The notes under the pieces were generated by a model. The model had not been told where the DNA came from, made no database searches, and saw nothing but the letters and a program-made list of their open reading frames with translations. From contig JANYJZ010000035.1 in the NCBI GenBank assembly GCA_025358305.1, positions 62,001 to 126,000 of the forward strand: a DNA stretch of 64,000 nucleotides, written 5' to 3'. A program made the position numbers and the translations under genes. This DNA comes from Ignavibacteriota bacterium (GTDB lineage Bacteria > Bacteroidota > Ignavibacteria > UBA10030 > SZUA-254). Of this stretch, positions 13,443-31,070 are shown piece after piece; the stretch's first letter is position 1; each line of letters starts with the position of its first letter.

Positions 13443-14264
13443 TTACGAGGGTTTATTGCTGTCGAACCGATTGAACACAAAACCAAGGACCTGGCGTTCG
13501 TTGATCTGGTGGAACACGCCGTTGATGTCCTCCTGCTTCGTCTGGCCCGTATTGACGACGATGATGAGGCCCTGGAGCTGGTTTGCGTAGAGGACCGGAA
13601 ATCCCCCCGTGTTGAGCGACGGCATGTCGACGATGACGAACTCGAACTCCTGTTCCAGGGAATAGATGACGTCGCGGAACGCGGCCAGCTGGTCGAGACT
13701 CAGCAGGGGGTGGAGGACCGGCTGCGCCGCGAGCGAGGAAAAGGGCGCGGAGGAGACGACGCCGTCCTGGATCTCCGTGAAGTGCTCGGCGGTCACGACG
13801 GAGAGGTTCTCGATCTGGGTCCGCGTCACGTGGATGTTGCTGGTCCTCAGGGCCTCGGCGAGGCCGGGGCTGTTCGTGACGCCGAAGATCTGGTGGAGCC
13901 GCGGGGCGTAGACGTTGAGGTCGACGAGGACCGTCTTCTTGCGCGATCCCATCGCGAGCGACACGGCGAGATTGCAGGCGATGAGCGTCTTGCCTTCCCC
14001 CTGGTTCGGGCTCGTGACGCCCAGGGACATGATGACATTCTCCTGGCTCCGGGAGAGGAACGAGTAGTTGAACGCATTATAGAACTGGAACTTGATGATG
14101 TCGCCGTCGATGTGCGCCCCGATCTCGGGGTTGACAACGATCTGCTTGATGACCCGGACAAGCTTCGTGTTCTCGGAGCCTTCGGGCTGCCGGGCTTCAT
14201 CCATGGGATCGCCGACCTGTTGTGATGGCATTGATTTCATCGTCTCCTTGTCGTCGCGCGTCAT
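13443..14264 (-). CDS. CpsD/CapB-like P-loop ATPase (BY-kinase-type), partner of Wzz
   Basis: 273 residues from ATG 14264, ATGA-overlapping the Wzz stop. Deviant Walker A is VTSPNQGEGKT (K92). Walker A' is TVLVDLNVYAPRLHQIFG, and Walker B is FVIVDMPS near residue 218. It is the cytoplasmic half of a bacterial tyrosine-kinase pair, which regulates chain length and export through Wzz. The C-terminus (GFVFNRFDSNKPS) has no tyrosine cluster and Walker A' reads DLN rather than the common DAD/DGD, so autokinase activity is doubtful. It may be only an ATP-dependent switch. Confidence 0.82.
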   Translation of the reverse strand: MTRDDKETMKSMPSQQVGDPMDEARQPEGSENTKLVRVIKQIVVNPEIGAHIDGDIIKFQFYNAFNYSFLSRSQENVIMSLGVTSPNQGEGKTLIACNLAVSLAMGSRKKTVLVDLNVYAPRLHQIFGVTNSPGLAEALRTSNIHVTRTQIENLSVVTAEHFTEIQDGVVSSAPFSSLAAQPVLHPLLSLDQLAAFRDVIYSLEQEFEFVIVDMPSLNTGGFPVLYANQLQGLIIVVNTGQTKQEDINGVFHQINERQVLGFVFNRFDSNKPS

Positions 14265-15610
14265 TCTTGCCCTTCCCGGCGGCCGTCGGTGATGAAGGCG
14301 ATGACCGGTTTTTGATACACTTCGACATCGCGCGGCGTCCGGATCGTCGTGTCGAGCATTTCCTTCAGGATGACCGTGACGATGCCGAAAAAGAGGCCGA
14401 TCATGAAGCCCGCGAAGATGAGCTGGGGACGGTTCGGTTTCGAGGGTTTGACCGGCATGGCGGCCGGATCGATGATGATGAACTGGTTCGTCCCGCCCGT
14501 GCCGAGGTCGCGCGCCGTCTTGGCCTGCTCCAGTTTCACTTTAAGCTCGTCATAGAGCTTCCGGTAGATCTCATAGTCGGATTCGTTCCCCTGCTCGACG
14601 TGCTTGCTGACGGACGATTCCTTCAGGCGGTCGACGAGCTGCGCGCGCCTCTTTTCCAGATCGTCGCGCTTCGGCTGCTGCTTCGTAAGCTCTTCCTCGA
14701 TGGCGTTCTGGATCCGCTGGAGGAGGGCGAGGAGCTGGTCCTCGGCCTTGATGAGGTCCGGATACATCGGCTTGTATTTCCGGGAATAGTCGTCGTATTT
14801 CGCCATGAGATCGCGGAACTCGGTGACGAACGGGATGTCGGCCCGCTGGAGGTCATAGAGGGTCTGCTTCCCGGTGTCCGTCTTGATCGCTCCCGGGAAC
14901 GTCTTGAGGATGTCGAGGTCGTGCTGATACGCCTTTCCCTTTGTCTCGAGCTCGTCGATCTGGTGCTGGTAGGTCTCCACCTGGGTGTAGAGCTGGATGC
15001 TTTCCTCCGGCATGACGTCGACGCGGGACCGAAGCCGGCTCACAACGAGCTGCTGGCTCGACTCGAACTTCTGCCGGATCTCTTCCAATTTCGTCTCAAA
15101 GAACGTTACCGCCCGTTCGTTCCGTTGGCCTTCCACCCGAAGAACCGTCTGGATGAAGAGGTTGGAGAGCGTCTCCGCCCCGAGCTTCGCACGGGCGGGA
15201 TCGACGTCGGTGTAGGTGATCCTGAACGAATCAGATCCTCGGCGTTCGATCTCGATGTTCTTTTCGACCTGGTCCACGAGGGCCTGCTCATCCCCTTCCG
15301 AGAGCTGCCCGTGGGCCAGGCCGAGGCTGTCGACGAGCTTACGGAGCGTGAGACGGCTGTAAATGATCTCATTGAAGGTCCGGAGGCGATCCTCCGAGGC
15401 GATGGCCACGGCGACCTCGAACCCGATGAGCGGGTTGAGGATCTCGTCGCGCTGGACGAGGATCGTGGTCGTCGACTCGTACTTGTTCGACAGGAGGAAC
15501 GCGCCGATAGCGCAGAGCACCGTCACGATGACGGCCGGTATGAGGAAATGGCGCCTTCGGTGGCGCAGCACCGCGATGATTTCGTGAAGAGTGAGCTGAG
15601 CAGAGCGCAC
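14261..15610 (-). CDS. wzz: Wzz/GNVR-family polysaccharide chain-length determinant
   Basis: 449 residues from GTG 15610, preceded by AAGGA 8 bases upstream. The N-terminal membrane helix is about residues 22-42 (HFLIPAVIVTVLCAIGAFLL). A long periplasmic coiled-coil-rich domain follows. The proline-rich VKPSKPNRPQ precedes a second helix (about 396-418) and a short cytoplasmic tail. This is the co-polymerase that sets chain length and contacts the CpsD-like ATPase encoded next. It is the first gene of the minus-strand operon, about 45 bases below the predicted start of the sigma-54 promoter. The gene symbol is by family, not a confirmed orthologue. Confidence 0.88.
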   Translation of the reverse strand: MRSAQLTLHEIIAVLRHRRRHFLIPAVIVTVLCAIGAFLLSNKYESTTTILVQRDEILNPLIGFEVAVAIASEDRLRTFNEIIYSRLTLRKLVDSLGLAHGQLSEGDEQALVDQVEKNIEIERRGSDSFRITYTDVDPARAKLGAETLSNLFIQTVLRVEGQRNERAVTFFETKLEEIRQKFESSQQLVVSRLRSRVDVMPEESIQLYTQVETYQHQIDELETKGKAYQHDLDILKTFPGAIKTDTGKQTLYDLQRADIPFVTEFRDLMAKYDDYSRKYKPMYPDLIKAEDQLLALLQRIQNAIEEELTKQQPKRDDLEKRRAQLVDRLKESSVSKHVEQGNESDYEIYRKLYDELKVKLEQAKTARDLGTGGTNQFIIIDPAAMPVKPSKPNRPQLIFAGFMIGLFFGIVTVILKEMLDTTIRTPRDVEVYQKPVIAFITDGRREGQE

Positions 15611-15665
15611 GGCAAATTCCTTCTGAATGATCGATTTGTCCTACGAGAGAATACACCATCAGGTG

Positions 15666-15681
15666 TGCAATTGATGTGCCA
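15666..15681 (-). promoter_or_regulatory. sigma-54 (-24/-12) promoter of the Wzz operon
   Basis: On the minus strand the site reads TGGCACATCAATTGCA, an exact match to the sigma-54 consensus TGGCACRNNNNTTGCW with the GG-N10-GC spacing. Transcription would start near 15655, giving a leader of about 45 bases before the GTG at 15610. A small inverted repeat ACACC-ATCA-GGTGT (15653-15666) covers the expected start site. Sigma-54 promoters need an enhancer-binding activator. Two candidates of that family are encoded at 17950 (degenerate) and 29712. Confidence 0.8.
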
Positions 15682-15821
15682 TGATGGCCCTCGGCAACTG
15701 CCCCAGAAAATAACAAATGCGGACATTGCCGGATGTGTGCTGCGTCTCTTTTTTGGGAATGCGCGGAGAATATCTCGATGTGTGTAGAAAGTACGCACGC
15801 ATACCGCACCATTACGGCACA

Positions 15822-15838
15822 TGTGTAACTCTTACACA
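15822..15838. promoter_or_regulatory. palindrome, candidate activator-binding (UAS) site
   Basis: TGTGTAA-CTC-TTACACA is a perfect 7-bp inverted repeat with a 3-bp centre. It lies about 140 bp upstream of the minus-strand sigma-54 promoter and about 200 bp upstream of the plus-strand one, a usual distance for enhancer sites of NtrC-family activators. A weaker similar element, TGTGTA-GAAAG-TACGCA, lies at 15781-15797. Binding by a specific protein is inference. Confidence 0.5.
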
Positions 15839-16038
15839 CTATCGGGGGAACGACGAAACCATTTGCCCTGTACGGATTTCTCCAACTTTTCTTCACGGAA
15901 TAAATCACGAAAATCATGCATCTCCCCGCCTAATCAGGCGCGTAGTACGGTCTTAGAGCCGAGCATCACCTTGGTCGATCTTAGATGGGGGCTCGGAAAC
16001 AATGAATTTGGGGGACTCGGGCGGACGTCGTGGCATTC

Positions 16039-16054
16039 TGGCACAAACTTTGCC
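16039..16054 (+). promoter_or_regulatory. sigma-54 (-24/-12) promoter of the Wza operon
   Basis: TGGCACAAACTTTGCC matches the sigma-54 consensus in all conserved positions except the last (C instead of A/T), with GG-N10-GC spacing. The start site would be near 16065, leaving a leader of about 112 bases before ATG 16178. It faces away from the matching promoter at 15666-15681. Confidence 0.72.
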
Positions 16055-16177
16055 TTTTCTCTGCAGTACAAGCCCGTAGGGATGTCCGACTCTCTCTCAC
16101 GTGAGGCTCGCTCACACACGAGCCCCCCTTGCGGTCCTGCGCATGCACCGATGCATTTGAAACCATACAAGGATTGG

Positions 16178-16903
16178 ATGAATTTCATGAAGACGATTCT
16201 TCTCTGCGTCTCACTCCCCGCGCTTCTTCTGGCGACGGCGGTCTTCTCCGGATGCGGCTCGAACGAGATCGCGAAGGAGAACCTCACGCAAATCATGCGC
16301 TCGGGAAGCCGGCCGATCCAGGCCGAGGCGCAGTCCGATAATTACGTGATCCGGCAAGGCGACCAGGTGCAGGTATCGGTCTGGGGATATCCGGAATTCA
16401 ACATGCAGTCCGTCGTGAAGGAACTCGGCCAGGTCGCGATGCCGCTCCTGGGCGACCTGACGGCGGCGGGACTGACGAAGGATCAGTTCACGCAGCAGCT
16501 GACGAAGAAGCTGACGGAATACATCCAGGGCGAGATAAAGCTGACGGTCACCATCGTCAGCGCGACGCCGCAAAAGGTCACCGTGCTCGGCGAGGTCATG
16601 CGCCAGGAGAACTACCCCCTCGCGTCCGACGCGACGCTCCTCGAGGTGCTCTCGACGGCAGGGGGGACCACGCCGGAGTCCGATCTGAGGAATATCAAGA
16701 TCTTGCGCAACGGCCTGAATCGCCAGCCGATCGAAGTGGATCTGACCTGGTACATGGAGAACGGCAACATCGAGGCCATTCCCGTCATCCGGCCCGGGGA
16801 CACGGTCTTCGTCCCGAAGCGTTCGAACATCATCCGGGAGCTGTCCGATTTCATGCGCGACGCGATCTTCATCTTCGGATTCTTCCAAGTCTTCAATCAC
16901 TGA
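16178..16903 (+). CDS. wza: Wza-type polysaccharide export lipoprotein
   Basis: 241 residues from ATG 16178 (a second ATG at 16187 is possible, with AAGGA at 16169-16173). The signal peptide MNFMKTILLCVSLPALLLAT is followed by FSGC, a lipobox with a non-standard F at -3, making it an outer-membrane lipoprotein. The poly-export domain starts at YVIRQGDQVQVSVWGYPEF, and one SLBB-like domain follows (KVTVLGEVMRQENYPL, LLEVLSTAGG). GDTVFVPKR is a typical end, and a short hydrophobic amphipathic tail could insert as the outer-membrane helix. It exports the polymer made by the divergent operon. Its stop is 6 bases before the PorV-like gene. Confidence 0.88.
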   Translation: MNFMKTILLCVSLPALLLATAVFSGCGSNEIAKENLTQIMRSGSRPIQAEAQSDNYVIRQGDQVQVSVWGYPEFNMQSVVKELGQVAMPLLGDLTAAGLTKDQFTQQLTKKLTEYIQGEIKLTVTIVSATPQKVTVLGEVMRQENYPLASDATLLEVLSTAGGTTPESDLRNIKILRNGLNRQPIEVDLTWYMENGNIEAIPVIRPGDTVFVPKRSNIIRELSDFMRDAIFIFGFFQVFNH

Positions 16904-16909
16904 GCCCCT

Positions 16910-17878
16910 ATGACCTTACGTCAATGCCGCGGGAATACCGCGGTGCACTTTCTCGTGTGCGGTTTTCTTGTCCTGACGTTCGCGGGCCTCATGGAGGCTC
17001 AGACGAACACGCTCTTCCGGCCGCGCTCCCTTCAATCCGGGGCCCGCGCGCTTGGATTCGGCGATGCGTACATCGCGGACGACAACGACATCAATAGCAT
17101 GTACTGGAACCCCGCCGCACTCGTCTATCTTCAGCACACCTCGCTCGTCCTGAATCACACGCTCGACCGGGCGAGCAACATGATGAATGAAAGCTTCGCC
17201 ACGCCGCTCCTCATGCACAAAGGAGAGGTGTTCGCGATGGGAGTTATGCTCAATCATGTCGGCCGTCTCTCCGAGAGCTCGATCGCCAATCTCTCGGCCC
17301 TCCAGTACGGTTACGACGCAGCGTATGCCCGAGAGGTCGTTCCGACCTTCAGTCTCGGCGGCGCGATCAACGTGCGCTACGGCAGTGCGGGATCAGGCAA
17401 ATTGTGGGCGTTCTCCTCTTCGATCGGCATGTTCTACACGCCGGCGGCGGATATCCGGTACGGTGCGGTCTTGAGCGGTCTCGGGAACGGGATCCGGTAC
17501 ACCTACGACGGCTCTACGACGATCCTCACCTCCGAACACCTCGCGCGCGACCTCCAGATCGGCGCCTCGATGCAGTTCCCGTCCGCGGGCCAAAAGGCCA
17601 TCCTGACGCTTTCCATCGCGAACGAGAAAGTGTTCGGTGTCAAGGGGCTTCGCTATAAAGGCGGCGCGGAGTATGTGTTCCTCCAGATCGTGGCCCTTCG
17701 ACTTGGGTACGACGTCGATCCGGACTTCCAGGTGGCGACCTACGGCGTCGGCTTGCGTGCCGGGAAATGGCAGTTCGACTACGGCATGCTTCCAAGCCGT
17801 CTGACCGACAGAATATATCAATTTACGCTCGGATTCGACCTCTGGAGCACGGGCGAGATCGTCCGGACTGACCGCTAA
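16910..17878 (+). CDS. PorV/PorQ-family (UPF0164-like) outer-membrane beta-barrel protein
   Basis: 322 residues with an N-terminal signal peptide ending near MEAQT. The mature start SGARALGFGDAYIADDND followed by INSMYWNPAAL is the PorV/PorQ signature, and alternating amphipathic strands run to the C-terminus. PorV shuttles T9SS cargo to the attachment complex on the cell surface, and PorQ is also a T9SS component. Here it is embedded between the polysaccharide exporter and the WecA-like gene, and two T9SS-sorted proteins follow within 6 kb. That context suggests a link between cargo attachment and the surface glycan, by inference. FadL-like transport is the alternative. Confidence 0.75.
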   Translation: MTLRQCRGNTAVHFLVCGFLVLTFAGLMEAQTNTLFRPRSLQSGARALGFGDAYIADDNDINSMYWNPAALVYLQHTSLVLNHTLDRASNMMNESFATPLLMHKGEVFAMGVMLNHVGRLSESSIANLSALQYGYDAAYAREVVPTFSLGGAINVRYGSAGSGKLWAFSSSIGMFYTPAADIRYGAVLSGLGNGIRYTYDGSTTILTSEHLARDLQIGASMQFPSAGQKAILTLSIANEKVFGVKGLRYKGGAEYVFLQIVALRLGYDVDPDFQVATYGVGLRAGKWQFDYGMLPSRLTDRIYQFTLGFDLWSTGEIVRTDR

Positions 17879-17949
17879 ATGGTCGGATGCTCCGCAGTAC
17901 CGGGCATGATCTGCATCACAACTTTTTTTGGTGAATTGGGCTACTATAC

Positions 17950-18783
17950 ATGAGCAATTTGAGAACGACATCACCCGAAACCGAACCGCTCGCCGCAGCG
18001 CAAGGGGTGCTGATGGGGCAGATCCTCAACACCATCGCACGTGTGGCTGTAAGTGATCTGAGCGTCCGGATCGTCGGCGAGAACGGCACAGGCAAACAGT
18101 GGCTGGCGCGAGTGATCCACGCGATGAGTTCCCGAGCCGACCGGGAGTTCGTGCCGCTCGACTGCTCGACGATCGCGGCCGGGCAATTTCACCGACATGT
18201 CTTCGGCACCGAGACCGCCGGAGCGGCGGGCCGGGAAGTGCGCCCCGGAGTCCTGGAATCTGCGATCGGCGGAACGGTGTATTTCGACAAGTTCTCCGTG
18301 CTTCCGCTGGAGTCGTGGAAAGAGCTCGTTGTCGCGTTCGAGCGGCAGCACTTCCGCCGCGTCGGCGGCGTCGAGGATGTCTACTTCAACGTGCGGGCGA
18401 TCGAGGGCCTGAGCGTGCCGGTGGACGAGTCGCACTTGAGGACCGGCGCCGGCGGCTGGTCGTCCGTCCGACTGGGGCAAGTGGGCATCAACCTCCCTCC
18501 GTTGAGAGAGCGCCGGGAATCGATCCCGTACCTGGTCGGAGGGTTCATTACGGAATGCAACGCGAGCGGCCGATCGTCCATCGAAGGGATCACTCCCGAA
18601 GCGCTCGAGCTCTGCACACTGTTCGACTGGCCCGGGAACGTCCGGGAACTCCGTAGTGCGATCGAGAGTGCCGCGCTCGTCTGTCGTAAAGGCTGGATCG
18701 ACCGGGACCATGTGTCGCCGTACCTGAAGAATCGGTCCCTTGACGTCCCTGAAGCATTGTCGCAGGTCCAATTCGGTCTCTGA
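17950..18783 (+). CDS. degenerate sigma-54 activator-like AAA+ protein lacking GAFTGA and DNA-binding domain
   Basis: 277 residues. Walker A GENGTGKQWLARVIH is intact. The sigma-54 contact loop GAFTGA is replaced by TETAGAAGREVRPG. Walker B reads GGTVYFDKF instead of GGTLFLDEI, so the catalytic glutamate is lysine. The FRxDLYYRL arginine-finger segment is replaced by GGWSSVRLGQVGI. The LPPLRERRESIP and WPGNVREL segments are kept. There is no N-terminal receiver and no C-terminal Fis helix-turn-helix. It cannot be a normal activator. It may bind nucleotide and modulate a real activator by mixed assembly, or be a relic. Its place inside a sigma-54-promoted operon favours a regulatory role. Confidence 0.75.
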   Translation: MSNLRTTSPETEPLAAAQGVLMGQILNTIARVAVSDLSVRIVGENGTGKQWLARVIHAMSSRADREFVPLDCSTIAAGQFHRHVFGTETAGAAGREVRPGVLESAIGGTVYFDKFSVLPLESWKELVVAFERQHFRRVGGVEDVYFNVRAIEGLSVPVDESHLRTGAGGWSSVRLGQVGINLPPLRERRESIPYLVGGFITECNASGRSSIEGITPEALELCTLFDWPGNVRELRSAIESAALVCRKGWIDRDHVSPYLKNRSLDVPEALSQVQFGL

Positions 18784-18809
18784 CCGTCACCAATTCACGA
18801 GTACTCACC

Positions 18810-20750
18810 ATGAATACATTTGGAATGTCACTCGAGCAATATGCGCTGTTCCTGATCCCGCTCGCGTTGTCGCTCGGGATCACGCCGTTGGTGATCTCCT
18901 ACGCGAAGCGCATCGGTGCGATCGATCAGCCGAACGAACGGAAGGTCCATAAGAATCCCGTCCCGCGGCTCGGCGGCGTCGCGATCTACGTGAGCTTCTT
19001 CGTCACCCTCGCCATCGCGCTCTATCTCGATTCAGGAGCCGGGACGTTCGCCGGCATGACGCCGCACACGGGACTCATGCTCGTGATCTCGCTGACGATG
19101 GTGCTCCTCATCGGGATCTGGGACGATCTCTACCAGCTCTCTCCGGGCAAGAAGCTCATCGGCCAGGTCGTGGCTGGTACCGTCGTCTACTTCGCGGGTT
19201 TCAAGATCTCCGCCATCACCCATCCGTTCAGTCCCGACCTTCTCTCGCTCGGATACCTCGACTACCCTGCGACGCTCCTCTGGGTGGTCGGGATCACCAA
19301 TGCGATCAATCTCATCGACGGCCTCGACGGCCTTGCCGGAGGCGTGGCCGTGATCGTCTCTTTGACGATGTTCGCCATCGCGTCTTTGAAAGGCGATGTC
19401 ACCACCGCGATGATGGCGCTCATGCTCGCCGGTTCGATCCTCGGATTCCTGCGCTACAACTTCAACGGTGCGAGGATCTTCCTCGGCGACTCGGGGAGCC
19501 TCTTCATCGGCTTTCTCCTGGCGATCCTCTCGATCAGGAGCTCCACGAAGGGGTCGACCGCATTCTCCATCATGGTGCCGATGCTCGCGCTCGGCCTGCC
19601 GATCATGGATACGCTCCTGTCGATGACCCGCCGCCTCCTCCGGTCGATCGTTCCCCAGGAGAAGCAGAGCCAGACGATCTTTGGGCGGCTCGTCGGAATG
19701 TTCCTCCCCGACCGGGGGCACATCCACCACCGGCTCATCGACCGCGGATTGTCGCACCGCAACGTCGTGCTCCTGCTCTACATGGTCTCCTGCGCGTTCG
19801 GTCTCGGCGCGTTCGCCGTCACCATCACGAACAATTTCGGCGCGTCGCTCATCCTGGTGACGGTGGCGATCGCGACCTTCATCGGTGTCAGCCAGCTGCG
19901 CTACAAGGAGATGGCGGTCCTTCGCAACGGCACGCTCCTCCCGATGTACGAGTGGCCCCTGATGAACAGCACGCTCTTCCACGGCTTCCTCGACGTCGCG
20001 TTCATCGTCGCGGCCTTCCTGCTCTCCTTGACGCTGAGCGACCACCCGACGCATCTTGACGCTGTCCAGCGCCCGTTCTATGTCACGCTCTCGCTCATCT
20101 GCGGCGTCCAGCTTCTCGTGTTCTATCTCGTGGGGATGTATAAGTCGACCTTCCGGCAAATGGGGATCGGCGACCTCCTGAAGCTCCTCAAGACGGTCAC
20201 CATCGCGGTGTTCGCGACGTTCGTCCTCCTCGAGGTCGTGCCGAACGAATTTCGGCCGATCAGCCTTGTCCTGGTGGCGCTCGATTTCTACTTCCTCCTC
20301 TCCTTCGTCGTGGGAGCGCGCGTCTCCTACCTCGTGCTCCACTACTTCTCCCGCAACGAACAATTGCGCGACGGAAAGCGCATCCTCGTCTACGGCGCCG
20401 ACGCAAAGGGCCTCATGATGGTGCAGCAGATCCTCCAGGAGAACGCGCGGATGTTCAATCCGGTGGGGTTCCTCGACGACGACCCACAGCTCGAAGGGAA
20501 GAAGATGAACGGCTATCCGATCTACGGAGGCCATTGGAAGCTTGCCCGGCTCCTCAATACGCTGAAGATCGACGAGATCCATATCGCCAGCGAGGATGTG
20601 AAGCCCGAGGCGCTCCGGAGGCTCATGTCGATCTCCCGGGAGAAGGGCGTCATCGTGCGCTCGCTGAAGCTTCAGTTGGAGGAGGTCGAGCAGGTCCACG
20701 ATACGCGCATCCTCCCGCTCCGGGAGCAGTTCGCCGCTGCCGGAAAGTAA
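18810..20750 (+). CDS. WecA/MraY-like glycosyl-1-phosphate transferase fused to FlaA1/CapD-type N-terminal region
   Basis: 646 residues. Residues 1-about 370 are a polyprenol-phosphate hexose-1-phosphate transferase: DQPNERKVHKNPVPRLGG, GIWDDLYQLSP, NAINLIDGLDGLAGG, FNGARIFLGDSGSL and PDRGHIHHRLIDRG hold the catalytic aspartates and the HIHH loop. Residues about 385-646 add four more membrane helices and a Rossmann-like domain (RILVYGADAKGLMMVQQIL, PVGFLDDDPQLEGKKMNGYPI), as in the N-terminal half of FlaA1/CapD-type proteins, but without the epimerase domain. It should start repeat-unit synthesis on undecaprenyl phosphate. The role of the fused half is unknown. Confidence 0.85.
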   Translation: MNTFGMSLEQYALFLIPLALSLGITPLVISYAKRIGAIDQPNERKVHKNPVPRLGGVAIYVSFFVTLAIALYLDSGAGTFAGMTPHTGLMLVISLTMVLLIGIWDDLYQLSPGKKLIGQVVAGTVVYFAGFKISAITHPFSPDLLSLGYLDYPATLLWVVGITNAINLIDGLDGLAGGVAVIVSLTMFAIASLKGDVTTAMMALMLAGSILGFLRYNFNGARIFLGDSGSLFIGFLLAILSIRSSTKGSTAFSIMVPMLALGLPIMDTLLSMTRRLLRSIVPQEKQSQTIFGRLVGMFLPDRGHIHHRLIDRGLSHRNVVLLLYMVSCAFGLGAFAVTITNNFGASLILVTVAIATFIGVSQLRYKEMAVLRNGTLLPMYEWPLMNSTLFHGFLDVAFIVAAFLLSLTLSDHPTHLDAVQRPFYVTLSLICGVQLLVFYLVGMYKSTFRQMGIGDLLKLLKTVTIAVFATFVLLEVVPNEFRPISLVLVALDFYFLLSFVVGARVSYLVLHYFSRNEQLRDGKRILVYGADAKGLMMVQQILQENARMFNPVGFLDDDPQLEGKKMNGYPIYGGHWKLARLLNTLKIDEIHIASEDVKPEALRRLMSISREKGVIVRSLKLQLEEVEQVHDTRILPLREQFAAAGK

Positions 20751-22135: not shown

Positions 22136-22492
22136 CCATTCGGCCACTGCCGTTCCAGGACGCTTCTCCACCTTTCACCCCTCACGTTGTACACTCAATT
22201 CTCCCCCTGCCGCCCCACGCTCACCACCATCGCGCTACGCCCCCCTTGCGAACCAGGACTTTGTGATCTGACATCGACGGTGTTCGGCCGAAAAGCGCCG
22301 ATCAAGTGTTTCCCGTCACGCTAAAATAATTCGATGGTGCGACTTTTTGAAGATCCGGTGATGCATATCACATGATTGTTGGTTCCTCTTGATCGCGTTC
22401 GTATCCTGTGTCCGAACGGGTAAATCGAGCAGACAGATGTACTCGCAGTGCGTGCTCGGATTCATGAAAAGCGACAATCGAAGGAGCAGACA
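22136..22492 (+). other. intergenic region upstream of first GH18 gene (357 bp)
   Basis: I see no gene here. The last 170 bases are more AT-rich than the surroundings and should hold the promoter of the GH18 gene, but no convincing sigma-70 or sigma-54 element can be picked. Confidence 0.5.
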
Positions 22493-25400
22493 ATGATGAA
22501 CAAGTTGATGATGAGTGCGGTCCTGATCATGATCACGTCGGCAGCCCTCTACGGCCAAGCGTCCTCCAGTCTCTGGGTGACGGCGTATTACCAGGATTAC
22601 GGCGTATGCGCCATGCCGCCTGCCCAGGTGGACTTTTCCGCGCTGACGCATATAATCTACTTTCATACGGACGTTGACGTCAACGTCGCCCCGTACTTCC
22701 TTCCCGTCGTCAGCGCTGCCGAATCCACACGGATCGAGTGGAGCAACTCGTCGCAAGGTTGCGCCCGGACAAGCGGCGAATCGTACCAGGCGGAACTCCT
22801 TCGGCGAGGCCACGCCGCGAACGTAAAGGTCCTTCTCTGCGTCGGCGGCATCTACGGCGCGGGCGCGACCAGGATGGGGCAGATCGCCTCCGATTCCGTG
22901 AAGACCCAAACCTGGGCGAACTCCCTCATCGCCTACCTCATTCGGAAGGGATTTGACGGCATCGATCTCGATTGGGAGTTCCCGCAGAACCAGACCGACT
23001 ACATGCGTATGCTCCGGATCCTCCGGCGCGGCCTCGACAGCATGCCCGCGCGGGGCGTGTTCACCGCAGCCGTCTACGGAGACGCGAACAGCTCCGCCTA
23101 CGACTACCCGAATCTCAAGTACTACCTCGACCAGGTCAACTGCATGACCTACGATATGTGGAACAACCAAAACACCGTGTGGCTGAACTCCCCCCTGGGC
23201 AAAGCAGCCGGTAGCCCGAGCGCCTGGCGGACGTGGAGAGCGTCCTCCGCGCTCTCCTGGGCGAAGAAGGGCGTTCCGAAGAACATCCTTGCGAACGGCA
23301 TCCCGTTCTATTCCTGGAAATTCACCGGCGTGACTGCCCTCGGTCAGCCGCTCGCGGGATACAACTACGGCGAATTCTCCGACGCTGCGAACGCCCTCGC
23401 CGGCGGCGGGACCTACCACTGGGATGATTCGGCGAAGGCGCCATGGGTCACCATTACCAATGGCGGCGTGAACACCCTCATCACATACGACGACACGAAT
23501 TCCGTGAAGTACAAGGTCCAGCGGACCAAGGACGACGGGATCGGCGGCGTCATGATCTACGGGCTCTGGGACGGCTGGCTCTCCAGCGCGCCGGCAGGCA
23601 AAAAGGATGCGCTCCTCCAGGCGGTAAAGTCCGCCAATGGCGGAACGTTCGTTCCGCCTCCGACGACGGCGGCCCCGACATTGAATTCCCCCGCTGACGG
23701 CGCGACGGGCGCCGCGACCTCGACGACGTTCAACTGGAATGTCGCCTCCGGCGTCACCTCGAGCGAGATACAGATCTCGACGAACTCGGCCTTTTCCGCC
23801 ATCGCCGTCGACCAAGGGGCGATCGTAGGGACGAGTTATCTTGCCGGCAGCCTGAGCAACGCAACGACATACTTCTGGCGCGTCAACGCCACGAGCTCCA
23901 ACGGAACGAGCGCGTGGTCGGCCGTCCGAAGTCTCACGACGATCGCCGGAGCGCCGAGCGCTCCTGCGGCCCCGTCGCTCCTGTCGCCCGCCCAGGGTGC
24001 GCTGAATATCGTCCTGAGTCCCGATCTCCGGTGGAGGACCGCCCCGAGCGCCACGACGTACCGGCTGCAGCTCGCGACGAGTTCCTCGTTCTCCGCGCCC
24101 GTTGTGGACCAGAGCAGTATCACCGATACGCTGCTCCACGTGACCAATCTGAGCTATAGCACGGTGTACTATTGGCGCGTCGTTGCGAGCAACGCGATCG
24201 GCACCGGAGCGTGGTCCGCGGCGTCGGATTTCACAACCGCGGACAGCGTCATCGTTTCGACCAGCGTGAAGGTCTTCCAGGATACCATTGGCACCGCGTG
24301 GCGCGACAACTCATGGAACGCGACGGTCACGTACGGCAGCACGGAACGCGTCTACGAAGGAACAAAGTCGATCCGGGTCGACCAGAACGCCTGGGGCGGC
24401 CTGAGCATGCACAACGGTCCGTGGGGCTCCCCGGTCAACATGAATCCGGCGGACTATGCCCGAGTCGAGTTCGCGGTCAATGGAGGGGCCACCGGCGCGC
24501 AGATCAGCGTCCTTCTCGCAAATGATGCGTCGGAGACGTTCCCCACCGTCAGCTACGGCACGGTACCGGCGAACCAGTGGGCGTATATCTCGCTGCCCAT
24601 GAACCAGCTCGATCCCAGCGGCCACATGATCAACCGGGTCGGCATCCTCGAGGTCGCAGGGACCACGAAGACGTACTTCGTCGACGACATCCGGCTCATC
24701 GGCAACGGACAGGTGTCGACACTTTTGGCGGCCGCGCTGGTGTCGCCGGCGAACGCCGCGGTCAATCAGATCGCCGCCGCTCCGCTCCGGTGGAATGCGT
24801 CGGCCGGCGCGACTTCGTACCGGCTCCAGGTCTCGACGAGCGCAACGTTCGCATCGCTCCAGATCTATCAGAGTGCTCTGACGGACACGACCTTCACGCC
24901 GAGCACTCTCAGCGACAATACGACCTACTACTGGCGCGTGAGCGCCTCGGATGCGTCCGGGACAAGCCCCTGGTCGTCCGTTTGGAGCTTCACTACCCAG
25001 GTTTCGCCGGTCGTCGCTCCTGCGCCTCCGCCGCTCGGGTTCCCCGCCGGAGGAGCGTCCAACGTCTCAACGACGACCTCTCTGCAATGGAACCGCGTCG
25101 CTTCGGCGAGTTCGTACCACGTGCAGGTCTCTGGTGATTCGTCCTACGGATCGTTCTTCCTCGATCAGAACGGGGTCACCGATACGACGCTCGCTGTGAC
25201 GGGTCTGGCGAACAGCACGACATACTACTGGCGGGTGGACGCGACGAACACGGCCGGGACAAGTCCCTGGTCCGCGACCCGAAGCCTCACCACGAAGGCC
25301 TCAGGCCTTGCGTTCGCGGCCAGTCCGTCGTCGATGAACTTCGGCAAGGTCGGCATCGGACAGTGGAAGAAGGACTCGCTCACGATCACCAACCAGGGAA

Positions 25401-26245
25401 GCGTGTCGTTGACGGTCACGCAGGTCCAAGCTACGCTGCCCCAGTACAACGTGATCTCGAATGTCGGCGCGCTCGCCCCCGGGAACAGCGCCAAGGTCTT
25501 CATCACCTTTGCGCCAAGCCAGCGCATCACGTACGACGACAAGATCGCCATCGTCATCAACTCGGGGAACTCATCGGACACCGTCTTCGTCACGGGCAAG
25601 GGTGTCAATCCCGCGCACTTGCGCCACGGTTCGGCGAACGTCAACCTTGGCAACGTGCCGACGGAGGTCTTGACTTCCGACACGGTCATGGTGTACAATG
25701 ACGGCGAGCTCGACCTCAACATCGCGAACATTCAGTCGACGAACGCGGTGTTCAATATCTCGCCGCTCCAGGCAGTCATCGCCCCCGCGGACAGCATGCG
25801 GTTCATCATCACCGCGCACCCGACCACCTCTGGCATGCAGGACGGCTACTTCTTCTTCGACAATAATGGTGTCGGGACCCCCGATACGCTCCACGTCCAG
25901 ATCGACAACGCGACGGGGATCGGGGATCCTCCGGCCACGCCGTCAGCGTTCCTCCTCCGCCAGAACTATCCGAACCCGTTCAACCCGTCGACGACGATCT
26001 CGTTCGATCTCGCGACGCCGGCCGTGGTCTTCCTGAAGATCTATAACTCCCTCGGCCAGGAGGTGGCGACGCTCTACGACGGCCAGCAGTTGGACGCCGG
26101 CACGAAAACGGCCGTCTTCCACGCGGATGCGCTCCCCTCGGGTATCTACTATTACGGTCTGAGAGCTCAGGGCGTCGATCTTGCCGGGATCCTCAAGCAT
26201 GACGTCTCGATCGCGCAGATGAAAAAAATGATCCTCATCAAATAG
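22493..26245 (+). CDS. secreted GH18 chitinase-like protein with FN3 repeats and T9SS sorting domain
   Basis: 1250 residues from ATG 22493, with AAGGAG 6 bases upstream; the earlier in-frame start at 22448 has no such site. Signal peptide about 1-22 (LIMITSAALYGQA). GH18 domain about 23-385 with D155-G-I-D158-L-D160-W-E162, the complete DxxDxDxE catalytic motif. Two FN3-like repeats (about 395-590), a carbohydrate-binding-like beta-sandwich (about 595-705), two more FN3 repeats, an ASPM/Hydin-type Ig domain (NFGKVGIGQWKKDSLTITNQ) and a C-terminal T9SS type A domain starting QNYPNPFNPSTTISF. It should be exported by T9SS and act on chitin-like polymers at the cell surface. The 26624 gene is a tandem paralogue. 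Confidence 0.9.
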   Translation: MMNKLMMSAVLIMITSAALYGQASSSLWVTAYYQDYGVCAMPPAQVDFSALTHIIYFHTDVDVNVAPYFLPVVSAAESTRIEWSNSSQGCARTSGESYQAELLRRGHAANVKVLLCVGGIYGAGATRMGQIASDSVKTQTWANSLIAYLIRKGFDGIDLDWEFPQNQTDYMRMLRILRRGLDSMPARGVFTAAVYGDANSSAYDYPNLKYYLDQVNCMTYDMWNNQNTVWLNSPLGKAAGSPSAWRTWRASSALSWAKKGVPKNILANGIPFYSWKFTGVTALGQPLAGYNYGEFSDAANALAGGGTYHWDDSAKAPWVTITNGGVNTLITYDDTNSVKYKVQRTKDDGIGGVMIYGLWDGWLSSAPAGKKDALLQAVKSANGGTFVPPPTTAAPTLNSPADGATGAATSTTFNWNVASGVTSSEIQISTNSAFSAIAVDQGAIVGTSYLAGSLSNATTYFWRVNATSSNGTSAWSAVRSLTTIAGAPSAPAAPSLLSPAQGALNIVLSPDLRWRTAPSATTYRLQLATSSSFSAPVVDQSSITDTLLHVTNLSYSTVYYWRVVASNAIGTGAWSAASDFTTADSVIVSTSVKVFQDTIGTAWRDNSWNATVTYGSTERVYEGTKSIRVDQNAWGGLSMHNGPWGSPVNMNPADYARVEFAVNGGATGAQISVLLANDASETFPTVSYGTVPANQWAYISLPMNQLDPSGHMINRVGILEVAGTTKTYFVDDIRLIGNGQVSTLLAAALVSPANAAVNQIAAAPLRWNASAGATSYRLQVSTSATFASLQIYQSALTDTTFTPSTLSDNTTYYWRVSASDASGTSPWSSVWSFTTQVSPVVAPAPPPLGFPAGGASNVSTTTSLQWNRVASASSYHVQVSGDSSYGSFFLDQNGVTDTTLAVTGLANSTTYYWRVDATNTAGTSPWSATRSLTTKASGLAFAASPSSMNFGKVGIGQWKKDSLTITNQGSVSLTVTQVQATLPQYNVISNVGALAPGNSAKVFITFAPSQRITYDDKIAIVINSGNSSDTVFVTGKGVNPAHLRHGSANVNLGNVPTEVLTSDTVMVYNDGELDLNIANIQSTNAVFNISPLQAVIAPADSMRFIITAHPTTSGMQDGYFFFDNNGVGTPDTLHVQIDNATGIGDPPATPSAFLLRQNYPNPFNPSTTISFDLATPAVVFLKIYNSLGQEVATLYDGQQLDAGTKTAVFHADALPSGIYYYGLRAQGVDLAGILKHDVSIAQMKKMILIK

Positions 26246-26623
26246 TTCCCTCGAACCCTCGGATGGCGTACGAGAGGGAGGCACGAGGCGGTGGTAAGAG
26301 AGAACCATCAACAGAGTCTGGGCGGGAACATTGTCCAGACTCTGTTTTTTTGGCTCGGACGCACAGAAAAATTTTAGCGGGTAAATCCCGCAACGAAGAG
26401 GTCTCGTCAGATTCGCATGGCTTAAAACTCTACAAATTGCAAAATTTTTCAATGTACACTCGCAAGAAACTATGGATTTGAAGCAAATAATCGAATATAT
26501 TGGCTTTTTTCCCTTGCAAAATCCCGGATTTATCTTTAGTTTAGAATGTCCCGGTTGGTCGAGGGGACACATCATTCCTTGTGAGTTGCCCTTCTTAACG
26601 CAAATTGATTGAAAGGATGCATA
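26246..26623 (+). other. intergenic region between the two GH18 genes (378 bp)
   Basis: Contains the terminator of the first GH18 gene at its start, then an AT-rich stretch (26360-26620) that presumably carries the promoter of the second. TGGCTTTTTTCCCTTGCA at 26500-26517 resembles a sigma-54 site, but the GG-GC spacing is 12 instead of 10. No gene is seen. Confidence 0.55.
26311..26351 (+). terminator. rho-independent terminator after first GH18 gene
   Basis: Perfect 11-bp stem ACAGAGTCTGG (26311-26321) with CCAGACTCTGT (26335-26345), a 13-base loop and a run of seven T at 26345-26351, 65 bases after the GH18 stop. It separates the two paralogues into independent transcripts. Confidence 0.92.
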
Positions 26624-29600
26624 TTGAGGAAATCCACATCCTCGTATAGTAACGGTTTATGCCTTGCCCTCATTGGGATGTTGATCCTTCTGATCGTCGG
26701 CGGACGGGAGACCTTTGCGCAGTCTTCGAAGGATTTGAACGCCGCACCAGCCTCCACGAGCAGTGCGACCGCGGGTAATCTCTGGGTGACCGGTTATTAC
26801 CAGGATTACGCGGTCTGCACGATGCCCCCTTCGCAGATCGATTATACCGCGCTCACGCATATCATTTTCTTCCACACCGACGTTGACGTCAACGTCGAGC
26901 CCTACTTCCTCCCGGTGGTCAGCGCTGCAGAATCTATCCGCGTCGAGTGGAGCGATTCTCGTCAGGGGTGCGCCCGGTCGGGAGGGGAGTCGTACCAGGC
27001 CGAACTCATCCGCCGGTCGCATACCGCGGGCGTGAAGGTTCTCCTCTGCCTCGGCGGCATCTACGGCGCGGGCGCCACTCGGATGTCGCAGATCGCCGTC
27101 GATTCGGTCAAGACCCAAGCGTGGACGAATTCTCTCATCGCATACCTCGTTCGGAAGGGGTTCGACGGCGTCGACCTTGACTGGGAGTTCCCGCAGAGCC
27201 AGGCCGATTACATGAGGATGCTGAGGATCCTCCGCCGCGGCCTTGACAGCATGCCCGCGCGGGGCGTCTTTACGGCTGCCGTCTACGGCGACGCGAACAG
27301 CTCCGCCTATGACTACCCGAACCTGAAGAACTATCTCGACCAGGTCAACGTCATGACCTACGATATGTGGAACAACCAGAACACCGCCTGGTTGAACTCC
27401 CCCCTGAGCAAGCCGGTCGGCTCGCCGAACAATTGGCGGACCTGGAGAACGTCGAGCGCGCTCTCGTGGGCCGCACGCGGCGTTCCGAAGAGCATCCTGT
27501 CCGACGGCATTCCGTTCTATTCCTGGCGGTTCACCGGCGTGACCGGTCTCGGCCAGCCGCTCGGCGGAACGAGCTACGCTGAATATTCCGACGCCGTCAA
27601 TGCGCTCAACACCGGCGGGACCTACCACTGGGACGATTCTGCGAAAGCGCCCTACGTTACCTATACGAACGCCAGCAACGGCGTGAACTACATGATCACG
27701 TACGATGACACGAATTCCATCCGGTACAAGGTACAGCGGGTCAAGGACGACGGGATCGGCGGGATCATGATCTACGGTCTCTGGGATGGTTGGCTCAACA
27801 GCGCCCCGGCCGGAAAGAAGGACATCCTTCTCCAGGCCATCAAGGCCGCCGTGGGCGGCACGATCGTTCTTCCTCTTCCTCCTCCGACGCAGGTCTCACC
27901 GAGCGAGGGGGCCCTCAATGTTCCGCCAGCGACCACATTGACGTGGACCTCGATCGGCGGTGCCACCTCGTACGGGCTCCAGGTCGCCGGCGACGCGTTG
28001 TTCACCTCGCTCTTGGTCAACGAGAACGCCGTCACGTCGACTTCTTTTCCGGTGACCCTAAATTCCCAGACGACGTACTACTGGCGCGTCAACACCCGCA
28101 ATTCTGCGGGCGTCGGCGCCTGGTCGGCGGTGAGGGACTTTCAGACGGCCGGCGGCACGAGGATCAGCGGAGTCTGTTTTTTCGACATGAACCGGAACGG
28201 GATCCAGGGGGCGGCCGAGCCGTCCATGGCTGGATGGGTGGTGCATCTGTCGGGACCGGTGTCGGCAACCACAGTGACCGATTCTTCGGGTTCATACCGG
28301 TTTGACGATATGCCGGTCGGGCAGTACACGGTTTCGGTGGATGTGAAGAGCCTCTGGTCGCAGACCTCTCCCATGGCCTCCTCAGCGTACGTCATTACCG
28401 TCACCGACGGATCAGCGTTTGACACGGCGACGTTCGGCCTCTACTCCGCGCTCGCCTTCCCCTTCGACGTCTCACGCTATTGGAATATCGTGGCGCTCCC
28501 GGTCGTGAACCCGGACAACCGCACCACGTCCGTGTTCTCCCTCGCGACGACGCAGGCCTACTCGTTCAACTCTGATGACGGGTACTTTGCCGAGGATACG
28601 CTCTCTGCCGGGCCGGCGTACTGGATCAAGTTCGGCGGCGCTCACACCGTCTGGTCGGCCGGCTCGCGGTTCTCGACGGCGAGTGTCGAGGTGGCGAAGG
28701 GCTGGAATTTCGTCGGGTCGGTCTCGACGCCCATCCCGTCCACCAATCTTGTTTCGATCCCACCGGGGATCATCATCGGAAACGTCTTCGGCTACAAGAC
28801 GGGAAACTATATCGCTGACAGTCTCGAGCCGGGGCAGGGATATTGGGTGCAGACCTCCGATTCGGGGACGATCGTTGTGTCAAGCCTCGCTCTCAACACT
28901 ACCCCCGGAAAAGAGAATGCCTCGAGTGCGATGAAGAATCTCAACAGCGTCACGTTCACGACGCGCAACGGGGAATCTCAATCGCTCTATTTCGGCGTGG
29001 ACAGGACCTCGCCTGCCTCGATGCGCTATGACATGCCTCCGCTTCCGCCGACCGGCGTATTCGATGCACGGTTCACCTCCGGCGGTTCCACCGGGATGAT
29101 CGCGAGCGTCCTGCGCACGACGCCGGACCATGCGGTCGAATTTCCGCTCGCGCTGCACTCCGCCGCCTTTCCCTTGAAGATCACGTGGGACGTCCGATCG
29201 AGCGCAGAGTCCTATGCGCTCCGCATCGCCGGCGGCCCCGCTGCAACGCTCTCCGGACAGGGGAGCCTGACCATCGATTCGCCCTCCCCAGGCACGAACG
29301 CCGCCGGTCTTGAGACGATGTCGGTCGTCGTCGAGGGAAGCTCGGTCTCCTCCGCGCCGAAGTCGTTCGCCTTAGAGCAGAACTATCCCAACCCGTTCAA
29401 CCCGTCGACGACGATCGGATTCACGCTTTCTTCAGCGAGCGCTGTCCGCTTGGAGGTCTTCAACGTTCTGGGTGAACGCGTCGCGCTGCCGGTCGACCGC
29501 GACATGGCGGCCGGGACATACTCGATCCCCTTCGACGCCTCCAGTCTCCCGTCGGGCGTCTATTTCTATAAGCTCTCCGCGATCGGCGCGGCCGGAGCGA

Positions 29601-29638
29601 GCTTCGTCCGGACCAATAGAATGGTCCTCTCCAAGTAA
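26624..29638 (+). CDS. secreted GH18 chitinase-like paralogue with SdrD-B-like domain and T9SS sorting domain
   Basis: 1004 residues from TTG 26624, with GAAAGGA ending 6 bases upstream (the TTG at 26609 has no such site). A signal anchor/peptide of about 35 residues ends in TFAQ. The GH18 domain carries D181-G-V-D184-L-D186-W-E188 and is closely similar to the 22493 protein throughout. Then one FN3 domain and an SdrD-B/Cna-like domain (FDMNRNGIQGAAEP, then GSYRFDDMPVGQYTV). A region of about 330 residues without a recognised fold follows, and a type A T9SS domain (QNYPNPFNPSTTIGF) ends the protein. The paralogues keep the catalytic module but swap the accessory domains. Confidence 0.9.
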   Translation: MRKSTSSYSNGLCLALIGMLILLIVGGRETFAQSSKDLNAAPASTSSATAGNLWVTGYYQDYAVCTMPPSQIDYTALTHIIFFHTDVDVNVEPYFLPVVSAAESIRVEWSDSRQGCARSGGESYQAELIRRSHTAGVKVLLCLGGIYGAGATRMSQIAVDSVKTQAWTNSLIAYLVRKGFDGVDLDWEFPQSQADYMRMLRILRRGLDSMPARGVFTAAVYGDANSSAYDYPNLKNYLDQVNVMTYDMWNNQNTAWLNSPLSKPVGSPNNWRTWRTSSALSWAARGVPKSILSDGIPFYSWRFTGVTGLGQPLGGTSYAEYSDAVNALNTGGTYHWDDSAKAPYVTYTNASNGVNYMITYDDTNSIRYKVQRVKDDGIGGIMIYGLWDGWLNSAPAGKKDILLQAIKAAVGGTIVLPLPPPTQVSPSEGALNVPPATTLTWTSIGGATSYGLQVAGDALFTSLLVNENAVTSTSFPVTLNSQTTYYWRVNTRNSAGVGAWSAVRDFQTAGGTRISGVCFFDMNRNGIQGAAEPSMAGWVVHLSGPVSATTVTDSSGSYRFDDMPVGQYTVSVDVKSLWSQTSPMASSAYVITVTDGSAFDTATFGLYSALAFPFDVSRYWNIVALPVVNPDNRTTSVFSLATTQAYSFNSDDGYFAEDTLSAGPAYWIKFGGAHTVWSAGSRFSTASVEVAKGWNFVGSVSTPIPSTNLVSIPPGIIIGNVFGYKTGNYIADSLEPGQGYWVQTSDSGTIVVSSLALNTTPGKENASSAMKNLNSVTFTTRNGESQSLYFGVDRTSPASMRYDMPPLPPTGVFDARFTSGGSTGMIASVLRTTPDHAVEFPLALHSAAFPLKITWDVRSSAESYALRIAGGPAATLSGQGSLTIDSPSPGTNAAGLETMSVVVEGSSVSSAPKSFALEQNYPNPFNPSTTIGFTLSSASAVRLEVFNVLGERVALPVDRDMAAGTYSIPFDASSLPSGVYFYKLSAIGAAGASFVRTNRMVLSK

Positions 29639-29711: not shown

Positions 29712-31070
29712 TTATGCCGTCTGCTGGAAGCTGTTGAGCTTGTTGTGGAGGGTCTTGCGGCTGACGCCGAGGATCTTCGCGGCCTTTGCCTTGTTGTATC
29801 CGGCAGAGGCGAGGGTCTGGAGGATGAGGATGCGTTCCGCCTCGTGCGTCGAACAGCCGACGGGGATGCTGATGACCCCATCCGGCGTCACCTTCGTGCG
29901 GATCCGCGCAGGGAGGTACTGGGGGGTAACTGTGTCGTTCGTGCAGATGACGAGCGCGCGCTCGACGACGTTGCGGACCTCGCGCACATTTCCCGGCCAT
30001 TCGTACGATGAGAGGATCTCCATCGTCTCGGCGGAGAACGTCGGCTGGACGCGGCCGTAGCGTGCCGAGAAGATCGCGGAGAAATACTCGATGAGGAGGC
30101 TGATGTCTTCTTTCCGCTCCCGCAAGGGGGGGATGAAGATCTCCACGACGCTGAGGCGGTAGTAGAGGTCCTCTCTGAGTTCTCTCGATTTCAATGCCGT
30201 GGTGATGTTCTTGTTCGTCGCGGCGATCATCCTGACGTCCACGCTCACTTCTTCGCTGCCGCCAAGCCGGCGGAACTTCTGCGTCTCGATTGCCCGGAGG
30301 AGCTTCGCTTGGGTGTCCATGCCCATTTCGGCGATCTCGTCGAAGAGGAGTGTGCCGAAGTTCGCGAGCTCAAAGCATCCCGCCTTCTTCGTCAGTGCGC
30401 CGGTGAAGGCGCCCTTCTCGTGACCGAAGAGTTCGTTCTCAATGACGTCCTTCGGGAGGGCGGCGCAATTGATGGCGATGAACGCCTGTTCGTTCCGAGG
30501 GCTCTGCTGGTGGATGAGGCGCGCGACGACCTCTTTTCCGGTGCCGCTCTCGCCGGTGACGAGTACGGTCGACTGCGACTTCGCGACGAGGCTCACCGCC
30601 GAGCGGATCTCGCACATGGCGGGGCTCTGGCCGACGAGGACGGCGCTCAGCTCGCCCGCGGACGGGGCGGCGCCGGCGTAATCCTTCGGGGATTCACGGT
30701 AATTGGTGGCCTCGCGGAGGATCGATTCGATGACGCGGGGGTCGGAGCTCGTGCCGATGAGAAAATCGTGCGCGCCCGCCTTGACGATCCGGACGGCGTC
30801 CTCGACGGAGCCGCTCGAAACGCTCACGATATGCTTCGTACCGATGGTGTGCTGGCGGCAGAATGAGATGAGCTTCAGGGGAGCGTCACAGATCCCCGCA
30901 GTTCGCAGGACGCAGACCTTGAAATCGCGTGAAAGGAGTTTTTCTTCTGCCTCGTTCAGCGAACCGACGGCAGTGACGCCGATATCGGCCCTGTTGAGCT
31001 TCTCGATGACCTGGCCTGCCGGGTCACCGTTCAAGGAGACAAAGAGTACTGTGTGAGACTGCTGCGACAT
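29712..31070 (-). CDS. NtrC-family sigma-54 activator with pseudo-receiver domain
   Basis: 452 residues from ATG 31070, AAGGA 5 bases upstream. Residues 1-125 have a CheY-like fold pattern, but the phospho-acceptor strand reads VCVLRTAGICD with no aspartate at the expected site, so control is probably not by phosphorylation. The AAA+ core is intact: GESGTGKE, ELFGHEKGAFTGA, GTLLFDEI, REDLYYRLSVVEIFIPPLRER and WPGNVREV. The Fis-type helix-turn-helix at the end (NKAKAAKILGVSRKTLHNKL) binds enhancers. It is the only complete sigma-54 activator in the window and so the obvious candidate for the two sigma-54 promoters at 15.7-16.1 kb. Target assignment is inference. Confidence 0.9.
   Translation of the reverse strand: MSQQSHTVLFVSLNGDPAGQVIEKLNRADIGVTAVGSLNEAEEKLLSRDFKVCVLRTAGICDAPLKLISFCRQHTIGTKHIVSVSSGSVEDAVRIVKAGAHDFLIGTSSDPRVIESILREATNYRESPKDYAGAAPSAGELSAVLVGQSPAMCEIRSAVSLVAKSQSTVLVTGESGTGKEVVARLIHQQSPRNEQAFIAINCAALPKDVIENELFGHEKGAFTGALTKKAGCFELANFGTLLFDEIAEMGMDTQAKLLRAIETQKFRRLGGSEEVSVDVRMIAATNKNITTALKSRELREDLYYRLSVVEIFIPPLRERKEDISLLIEYFSAIFSARYGRVQPTFSAETMEILSSYEWPGNVREVRNVVERALVICTNDTVTPQYLPARIRTKVTPDGVISIPVGCSTHEAERILILQTLASAGYNKAKAAKILGVSRKTLHNKLNSFQQTA

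Follow-up and report, generated by a model that had tools for sequence, protein, structure and literature searches.

A conserved sigma-54-activator-like protein with a degenerate active site in a glycan operon of Ignavibacteria, and its possible role as a brake on the operon's presumed activator

Results

Genes, promoters and a palindrome of the glycan locus

The window, by which we mean the whole 64,000-nucleotide stretch analyzed here, carries a glycan locus in which wza, a PorV-family gene, an AAA+ gene and a WecA-like gene follow one another and are divergent from a wzc-like gene (Table 1). The AAA+ gene encodes a sigma-54-activator module, which we label EBPL, as we do its relatives. The wza gene could start at the ATG at 16178 or at 16187, and its longest open reading frame begins at 15821, upstream of a sigma-54 site; its score of 100.5 bits against the XrtA-system export model lies below the cut-off of 180. 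Orthologues of the wzc-like gene head the divergent arm in other loci. Within the porV frame, two weak terminator-like sites overlap each other on the operon strand (16943–16961) and could weaken read-through if real.

The fusion of the WecA-like transferase to a CoA_binding_3 domain is conserved in most of these loci. Further downstream, two large secreted-looking proteins are encoded in tandem (22448–26245 and 26609–29638); read by eye, they resemble GH18 chitinases that carry repeats and end in a sorting-type C-terminus, and their relatives are found near several other loci.

The sequence-only reading of this DNA had placed EBPL in a sigma-54-promoted wza operon, and this holds as a prediction. 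A promoter-like site with one mismatch faces wza-porV-EBPL, and a perfect one faces wzc. The window contains three sigma-54 matches against 0.68 expected, a count of at least three being reached in 4 of 100 shuffles. We also scanned 22 wza/wzc gaps against mononucleotide shuffles, leaving out G012 and G005, whose contigs are without the gap. Sites matching at least 10 of 12 positions numbered 13 (0.64 expected) in 14 EBPL loci, 10 of which carry them, and 8 (0.49 expected) in 8 other loci, 7 of which carry them. A promoter scan of 15550–18900 returned no sigma-70-type promoters.

Between the two divergent sigma-54 sites lies an enhancer-like dyad, TGTGTAA-N3-TTACACA, of which the genome has no other perfect copy; a weaker copy is present at 15781–15797, and elsewhere in the genome one place matches with two mismatches. 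Dyads matching at least 12 of 14 positions occur in 11 of the 22 gaps, against 0.21–0.32 expected, and the fair count is 10 of 21 because the consensus was derived from the window itself. Perfect dyads with a spacing of 3–5 were found in 3 of 30 genomes, once in each and always in the wza/wzc gap. We read the dyad as a putative enhancer of the canonical activator encoded at 29712–31070. Loci without EBPL carry the same kind of promoters and dyads, and EBPL is therefore unnecessary for the basic circuit.

Table 1. Features of the glycan locus and of EBPL, with positions in the window
Feature	Position	Strand	Evidence
Divergent wzc-like gene, start of the locus's other arm	14261–15610	−	ORF; name from reading and locus comparison
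Sigma-54 promoter-like site TGGCACATCAATTGCA, facing wzc	15666–15681	−	Perfect match
Enhancer-like dyad TGTGTAActcTTACACA	15822–15838		Only perfect copy in genome; between divergent sigma-54 sites
Sigma-54 promoter-like site TGGCACAAACTTTGCC, facing wza-porV-EBPL	16039–16054	+	One mismatch
wza-like polysaccharide export gene	16178–16903	+	PF02563, 63.6 bits; start ATG 16178 or 16187
PorV/PorQ-family outer-membrane protein gene, directly upstream of EBPL	16910–17878	+	NCBIfam PorV_fam, 95.6 bits (cut-off 90)
EBPL, sigma-54-activator-like AAA+ protein without HTH or receiver, 277 aa	17950–18783	+	Pfam; AlphaFold2 model
EBPL Walker A GENGTGKQ, residues 43–50	18076–18099	+	Alignment; intact except trailing Glu (Q)
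EBPL Asp71, at the position of PspF switch Asn64	18160–18162	+	Alignment
EBPL segment replacing the GAFTGA L1 loop, residues 86–99, predicted beta hairpin	18205–18246	+	Model strands 86–91 and 94–99
EBPL Walker B remnant YFDKF, residues 111–115	18280–18294	+	Alignment
EBPL R-hand remnant GGWSSVR, residues 168–174	18451–18471	+	Alignment; replaces REDLYYR
EBPL lid WPGNVREL, intact, sensor II Arg retained	18628–18651	+	Alignment
WecA-like glycosyl-phosphate transferase fused to CoA_binding_3 domain, next downstream of EBPL	18810–20750	+	PF00953, 143.5 bits; PF13727, 35.2 bits
Canonical activator (EBP_full), presumed EBPL partner	29712–31070	−	PF00158, 223 bits; PF02954, 46.8 bits; GAFTGA, DE Walker B, HTH_8

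EBPL is an activator AAA+ module with most catalytic motifs replaced

The open reading frame of EBPL was confirmed as real. Its product matches Sigma54_activat (PF00158; 91.1 bits, residues 22–153) and AAA_lid_14 (PF25601; 72.3 bits, residues 186–265) above the Pfam cut-offs, and all 11 members of set A1 match the sigma-54 interaction AAA+ domain and lid. The Pfam search found neither an HTH nor a receiver, in agreement with the claim that input and output domains are both missing. Only about 20 residues precede the matched domains and 12 follow them, leaving an AAA+ domain by itself, a make-up of the FleT type.

The motifs of EBPL were compared one by one with those of four canonical activators of one group, with residue names following PspF (accessible text of PMC3419264 and PMC7175178). 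Walker A and the WPGNVREL lid are retained, as had been read from the sequence, the only change in Walker A being Gln for the trailing Glu. The reading of FDKF in place of the Walker B LDEI was likewise correct; the Asp is retained, and the catalytic Glu is replaced by Lys. Sensor I, AATN in the activators, is EGLS in EBPL. Two further claims stood in part. The sigma-54 contact loop had been described as lost; GAFTGA is indeed gone, with AGAAG at its position, but the L1 segment is replaced rather than deleted, being one residue shorter. Similarly, two of the three residues of the arginine hand, RxDxxxR in activators (accessible text of PMC3419264), are gone and the equivalent of PspF R168 is left, but the segment is degenerate rather than absent. 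Collectively, these replacements suggest that EBPL is catalytically dead.

In the AlphaFold2 model (pLDDT 88.1, pTM 0.84), EBPL adopts the normal activator AAA+ fold. The nearest solved fold is that of NtrC1 (1ny5; Z 27.3, rmsd 2.1, 247 aligned), and VpsR (7v2b; Z 24.0) also matches. The segment replacing L1 is modeled as a tight hairpin of two six-residue strands with pLDDT blocks of 96–98; a control model of the canonical activator, made by the same method, shows a loop with two-residue bridges at L1 (pLDDT 94.9). The length of the hairpin is fixed across the family, and its conservation is only average (majority share 0.51), so we make no claim for a conserved contact there.

EBPL forms a family with a fixed position behind porV

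In a first search of 60 relatives, a group of short matches was separate from ordinary activators. A profile built from 11 EBPLs was then run against 98 genomes of the order and gave 11 matches at 359–406 bits, followed by G073 (304 bits) and G085 (288 bits), with canonical activators at 274 bits and lower. Three more members, in G007, G013 and G039, were found by reading the gene after the locus-type porV, since they are too divergent, or cut, for the score to separate them from activators. The resulting 16 EBPLs in 98 genomes, representing five of the six families of the order, are a lower bound: the scores of divergent EBPLs, those of G007 and G013 among them, fall beneath those of canonical activators, and a search by score would overlook them. 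In a wider search at E 1e-84, 13 of 391 genomes of the class and 2 of 395 of the phylum matched, all within the order. A profile search of genome contigs gave eight EBPLs among the best 80 of 267 confirmed loci (L122–L126, L129, L131 and L142). G-x-FTGA is present in most of the other 72 of these 80 loci; the exceptions are activators that are variant, cut or read only in part, and they show DE at Walker B or an extended C-terminal tail.

Other degenerate activators were seen in the course of these searches. Two from Omnitrophota (L135:9941–10918 and L137:2988–3974) have GSFVGA or GSFAGA with LKDV or LDHI at Walker B, keep the HTH and adjoin PilZ/STAS genes. Two more (L133:9875–10915 and L151:8130–8718) have GTAKGA or GGAKKT with FLNDI, and the former lies beside Mrp Na+/H+ antiporter genes. 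The activators of Omnitrophota, a separate set of degenerate activators, and that of the Mrp-antiporter operon keep the HTH, and comparison with the window genes showed no glycan-locus neighbors.

All 16 EBPLs lie directly behind the locus-type porV of a wza-porV pair; the 15 measured gaps range from −25 to 71 nucleotides, so that the frames overlap or nearly touch. The sequence-only reading had proposed a search for orthologues with the same losses beside wza and porV, and all 16 lack both GAFTGA and the Walker B DE pair at this very place. Orthologues with both motifs intact, which the same reading named as the mark of a decaying copy, number 0 of 16, and the window copy is therefore not an isolated case of decay in an otherwise intact family. 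Scattered orthologues away from glycan loci were not found either, 16 of 16 being linked to such a locus. An ordinary truncated activator is rejected, as GAFTGA or DE is kept in none of the 16.

The locus-type porV was matched at 5e-28 or better in 24 genomes, 16 of which have EBPL. Six others (G006, G027, G040, G047, G092 and G094; the porV position in G047 was taken from the porV search) have porV followed directly by wecA. Of the remaining two, G003 runs into a contig end, and G087 has a different gene at the place of EBPL. EBPL is an accessory gene of the locus, because it is cleanly absent from six complete loci.

Conservation, selection and ancestry

In the alignment, GAFTGA, the Walker B DE pair and the sensor I TN are each found in 0 of 16 EBPLs. 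The switch Asn is also absent from all, and an acid takes its place in 16 of 16, compared with Asn in 4 of 4 canonical activators; this is the only uniform active-site replacement. The RxDxxxR arginine hand is retained in one member. The Walker A lysine is present in 14 members and the G..GK signature in 10, and the sensor II Arg is found in 8. WPGN is kept in 15, the sixteenth being cut at that point. Equivalents of the interface residues R122, E125 and R168 are kept in 11, 10 and 11 members, respectively. Erosion of Walker A affects the lineages f2 and g8; in the four members of the f2 clade, the subunit interface has lost its equivalents of R122, E125 and R168 as well.

An HTH_8 domain survives in two of the 15 complete EBPLs (G012, 25.0 bits; G073, 39.8 bits) and is gone from the other 13. 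The family thus stems from an activator that had a DNA-binding domain, and these two members suggest that the sigma-54 loop was lost earlier than the HTH. In a tree of 53 activators, the 16 EBPLs form one side of a branch with a support of 100/100, several EBPL branches being long and the program warning of long-branch joins. The tree does not tell whether EBPL arose from a duplicate of the 29712–31070 activator.

The EBPL frame is open in 16 genomes, one of them cut by a contig end. Its dN/dS values in four genus pairs are 0.167, 0.114, 0.152 and 0.174, with 0.03–0.23 for neighboring genes, and EBPL is under purifying selection.

The canonical activator

An orthologue of the canonical activator was found at E 1e-95 in 15 of the 16 EBPL genomes against 12 of 82 others (Fisher p 1.3e-9, kinship ignored). 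The sixteenth, G042, has a fragment with 75% identity to the activator, and its congeners without EBPL, G057 and G081, gave no activator match above 45%. Because the whole glycan locus co-occurs as well, this association is confounded. The genomes of the six complete EBPL-free loci contain the activator. Only 5 of 16 genomes (G000, G007, G013, G020 and G054) have EBPL and activator on the same contig at no more than about 15 kb from each other.

The N-terminus of the activator is degenerate and receiver-like, with Arg at the phosphoacceptor position, where we take Asp to be expected; the same holds in four orthologues, five sequences being readable. Other orthologues match only from about residue 110–145 onward and seem to be without a receiver. 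Against the PEP_resp_reg model, the window activator scored 330, the cut-off being 502.6.

Discussion

A possible mechanism

The best explanation of these results, which we put forward tentatively as quite possible, is that EBPL is a conserved pseudo-activator that binds the AAA+ domain of the activator and lowers or re-tunes its output. In its lineage, the loop that contacts sigma-54 and the Walker B DE pair would have disappeared first and, in most branches, the DNA-binding domain after them. The activator, acting from the palindrome that lies between the two opposed sigma-54 promoters, would switch on the wza-porV-EBPL-wecA operon. EBPL might then bind the activator's AAA+ domain, either entering a mixed ring or blocking assembly, with a negative and probably damping effect, and expression of the operon would thereby feed back on the activator. 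EBPL is a natural candidate to control the activator because it has the same fold, would be made from the activated operon and is without the usual sigma-54 contact. An activator that has no input domain needs some other means of control, a point made for HrpR/HrpS and FleQ/FleT in the accessible text of PMC9542535, and together these considerations favor a negative or tuning partner. In its full form, the proposal is that of an operon-encoded pseudo-AAA+ brake on glycan synthesis, acting on the activator ring by mixing or blocking, which lost sigma-54 contact, catalysis and DNA binding in that order and gained an acid for the switch Asn. This form is conceivable, though we hold it with some doubt. 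Counting against a pseudo-activator of this kind are the six complete loci that lack EBPL in genomes with the activator, the confounded co-occurrence of the two genes and the small number of genomes in which they lie close together.

A nucleotide-binding, catalytically dead subunit that poisons or tunes an activator hexamer, as the sequence-only reading had it, is possible. As a universal reading, a nucleotide-dependent poison is doubtful, because Walker A (G..GK lost in 6 of 16, the lysine in 2 of 16) and the interface residues are eroded in several lineages. In f2, the loss of most Walker A and interface residues argues against a nucleotide-dependent mixed ring there. The erosion of the interface in f2 and of Walker A in f2 and g8 speaks more strongly than any other result against a simple mixed-ring model; a non-ring interaction would be compatible with it, as would an adaptor of the glycan machinery.

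Such an adaptor would have left transcription, and its altered surface would serve to bind Wza, WecA, the PorV-like protein or the tyrosine-kinase part; it would report nucleotide state where nucleotide is still bound. The one thing that the family has never lost is its place behind porV and ahead of the following genes, the frames overlapping or nearly touching; furthermore, 13 of 15 members no longer have the HTH, and catalysis and, in part, nucleotide binding appear dispensable. However, nothing links EBPL directly to the Wza, PorV-like, WecA or kinase proteins, its ancestry predicts activators as the only partners, and two members retain HTH_8, so we regard this as rather unlikely. It is improbable that EBPL acts positively, as a co-activator whose mixed complexes with the activator are needed for, or re-select, certain sigma-54 promoters. 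FleT sets a precedent for this (accessible text of PMC7175178 and PMC7277832), and HrpR/HrpS and the VnfA paralogues are further cases (accessible text of PMC9542535). Against it, GAFTGA and the catalytic residues are absent in 16 of 16 EBPLs, and each EBPL in a ring should therefore cost activity.

Two remaining readings concern the protein itself. In RecA-like ATPases, the catalytic carboxylate is located at the end of strand 2, and EBPL might still be an ATPase in which the carboxylate has shifted from Walker B to that place (Asp71), with a different motor output. The uniform acid at the switch-Asn position (Asn in the canonical activators) would fit this, but the acid persists even in the 6 of 16 members in which Walker A has lost Gly or Lys, and sensor I and the R-hand are also gone; we judge it very improbable. 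That EBPL is a decaying pseudogene is scarcely credible. Many catalytic residues are lost and tree branches are long, but the frame is open in 16 genomes, dN/dS is 0.11–0.17 in four pairs and the position is the same across five families. For the family, dN/dS and synteny refute this reading, and relaxed selection was not found.

Comparison with known systems

Pseudo-enzyme subunits are a familiar means of regulating kinases. In the open-licence literature, we found no described case of a degenerate, pseudo or inactive sigma-54 activator subunit, nor of a natural, selected one that is catalytically dead, as EBPL appears to be; Ignavibacteria, sigma-54 and exopolysaccharide were not found treated together there either. 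If EBPL feeds back on the activator, the tolerance of bEBP rings for dead subunits in nature becomes testable. The activator, the palindrome, the two divergent sigma-54 promoters and the pseudo-subunit would make up a compact module that regulates matrix synthesis in Ignavibacteria, a little-studied group, and wza-porV-EBPL is an easy marker for locating it.

Sigma-54 and an activator are also tied to exopolysaccharide production in PEP-CTERM loci, which are controlled by PrsK/PrsR-RpoN; in the accessible text of that report, a pseudo-activator gene is not mentioned (PMC9850573). Sigma-70 promoters are the reported site of action of several bEBPs without GAFTGA, namely VpsR of Vibrio and NtrC of Rhodobacter capsulatus and Caulobacter (accessible text of PMC10274813). 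EBPL shares with them the missing GAFTGA and with VpsR the AAA+ fold, and VpsR also governs the biofilm matrix. In contrast to VpsR and the Caulobacter NtrC, the window EBPL is without an HTH for DNA binding and lies in a locus with sigma-54 sites. HrpR/HrpS and the VnfA paralogues are similar in that two paralogous activators of one process form mixed oligomers; as far as the accessible text goes, they are described as activators acting jointly, whereas EBPL looks catalytically dead.

The nearest precedent for EBPL, by analogy, is FleT of Rhodobacter sphaeroides. FleT is without both outer domains, is encoded in a FleQ-dependent operon and activates class III genes with FleQ (accessible text of PMC7175178 and PMC7277832), with which it forms a hetero-oligomer (PMC7175178, PMC9542535, PMC7277832). 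The two differ in that EBPL belongs to a glycan operon and has a putative partner, whereas FleT is flagellar. EBPL is without GAFTGA, the Walker B DE pair and the R-hand, and the likeness rests on domains and operon, the FleT motifs lying outside the comparison. Both are activator AAA+ domains alone that work, or in the case of EBPL would work, with a paralogue in the same process, from an operon that is switched on, for EBPL presumably, by the full activator of that process.
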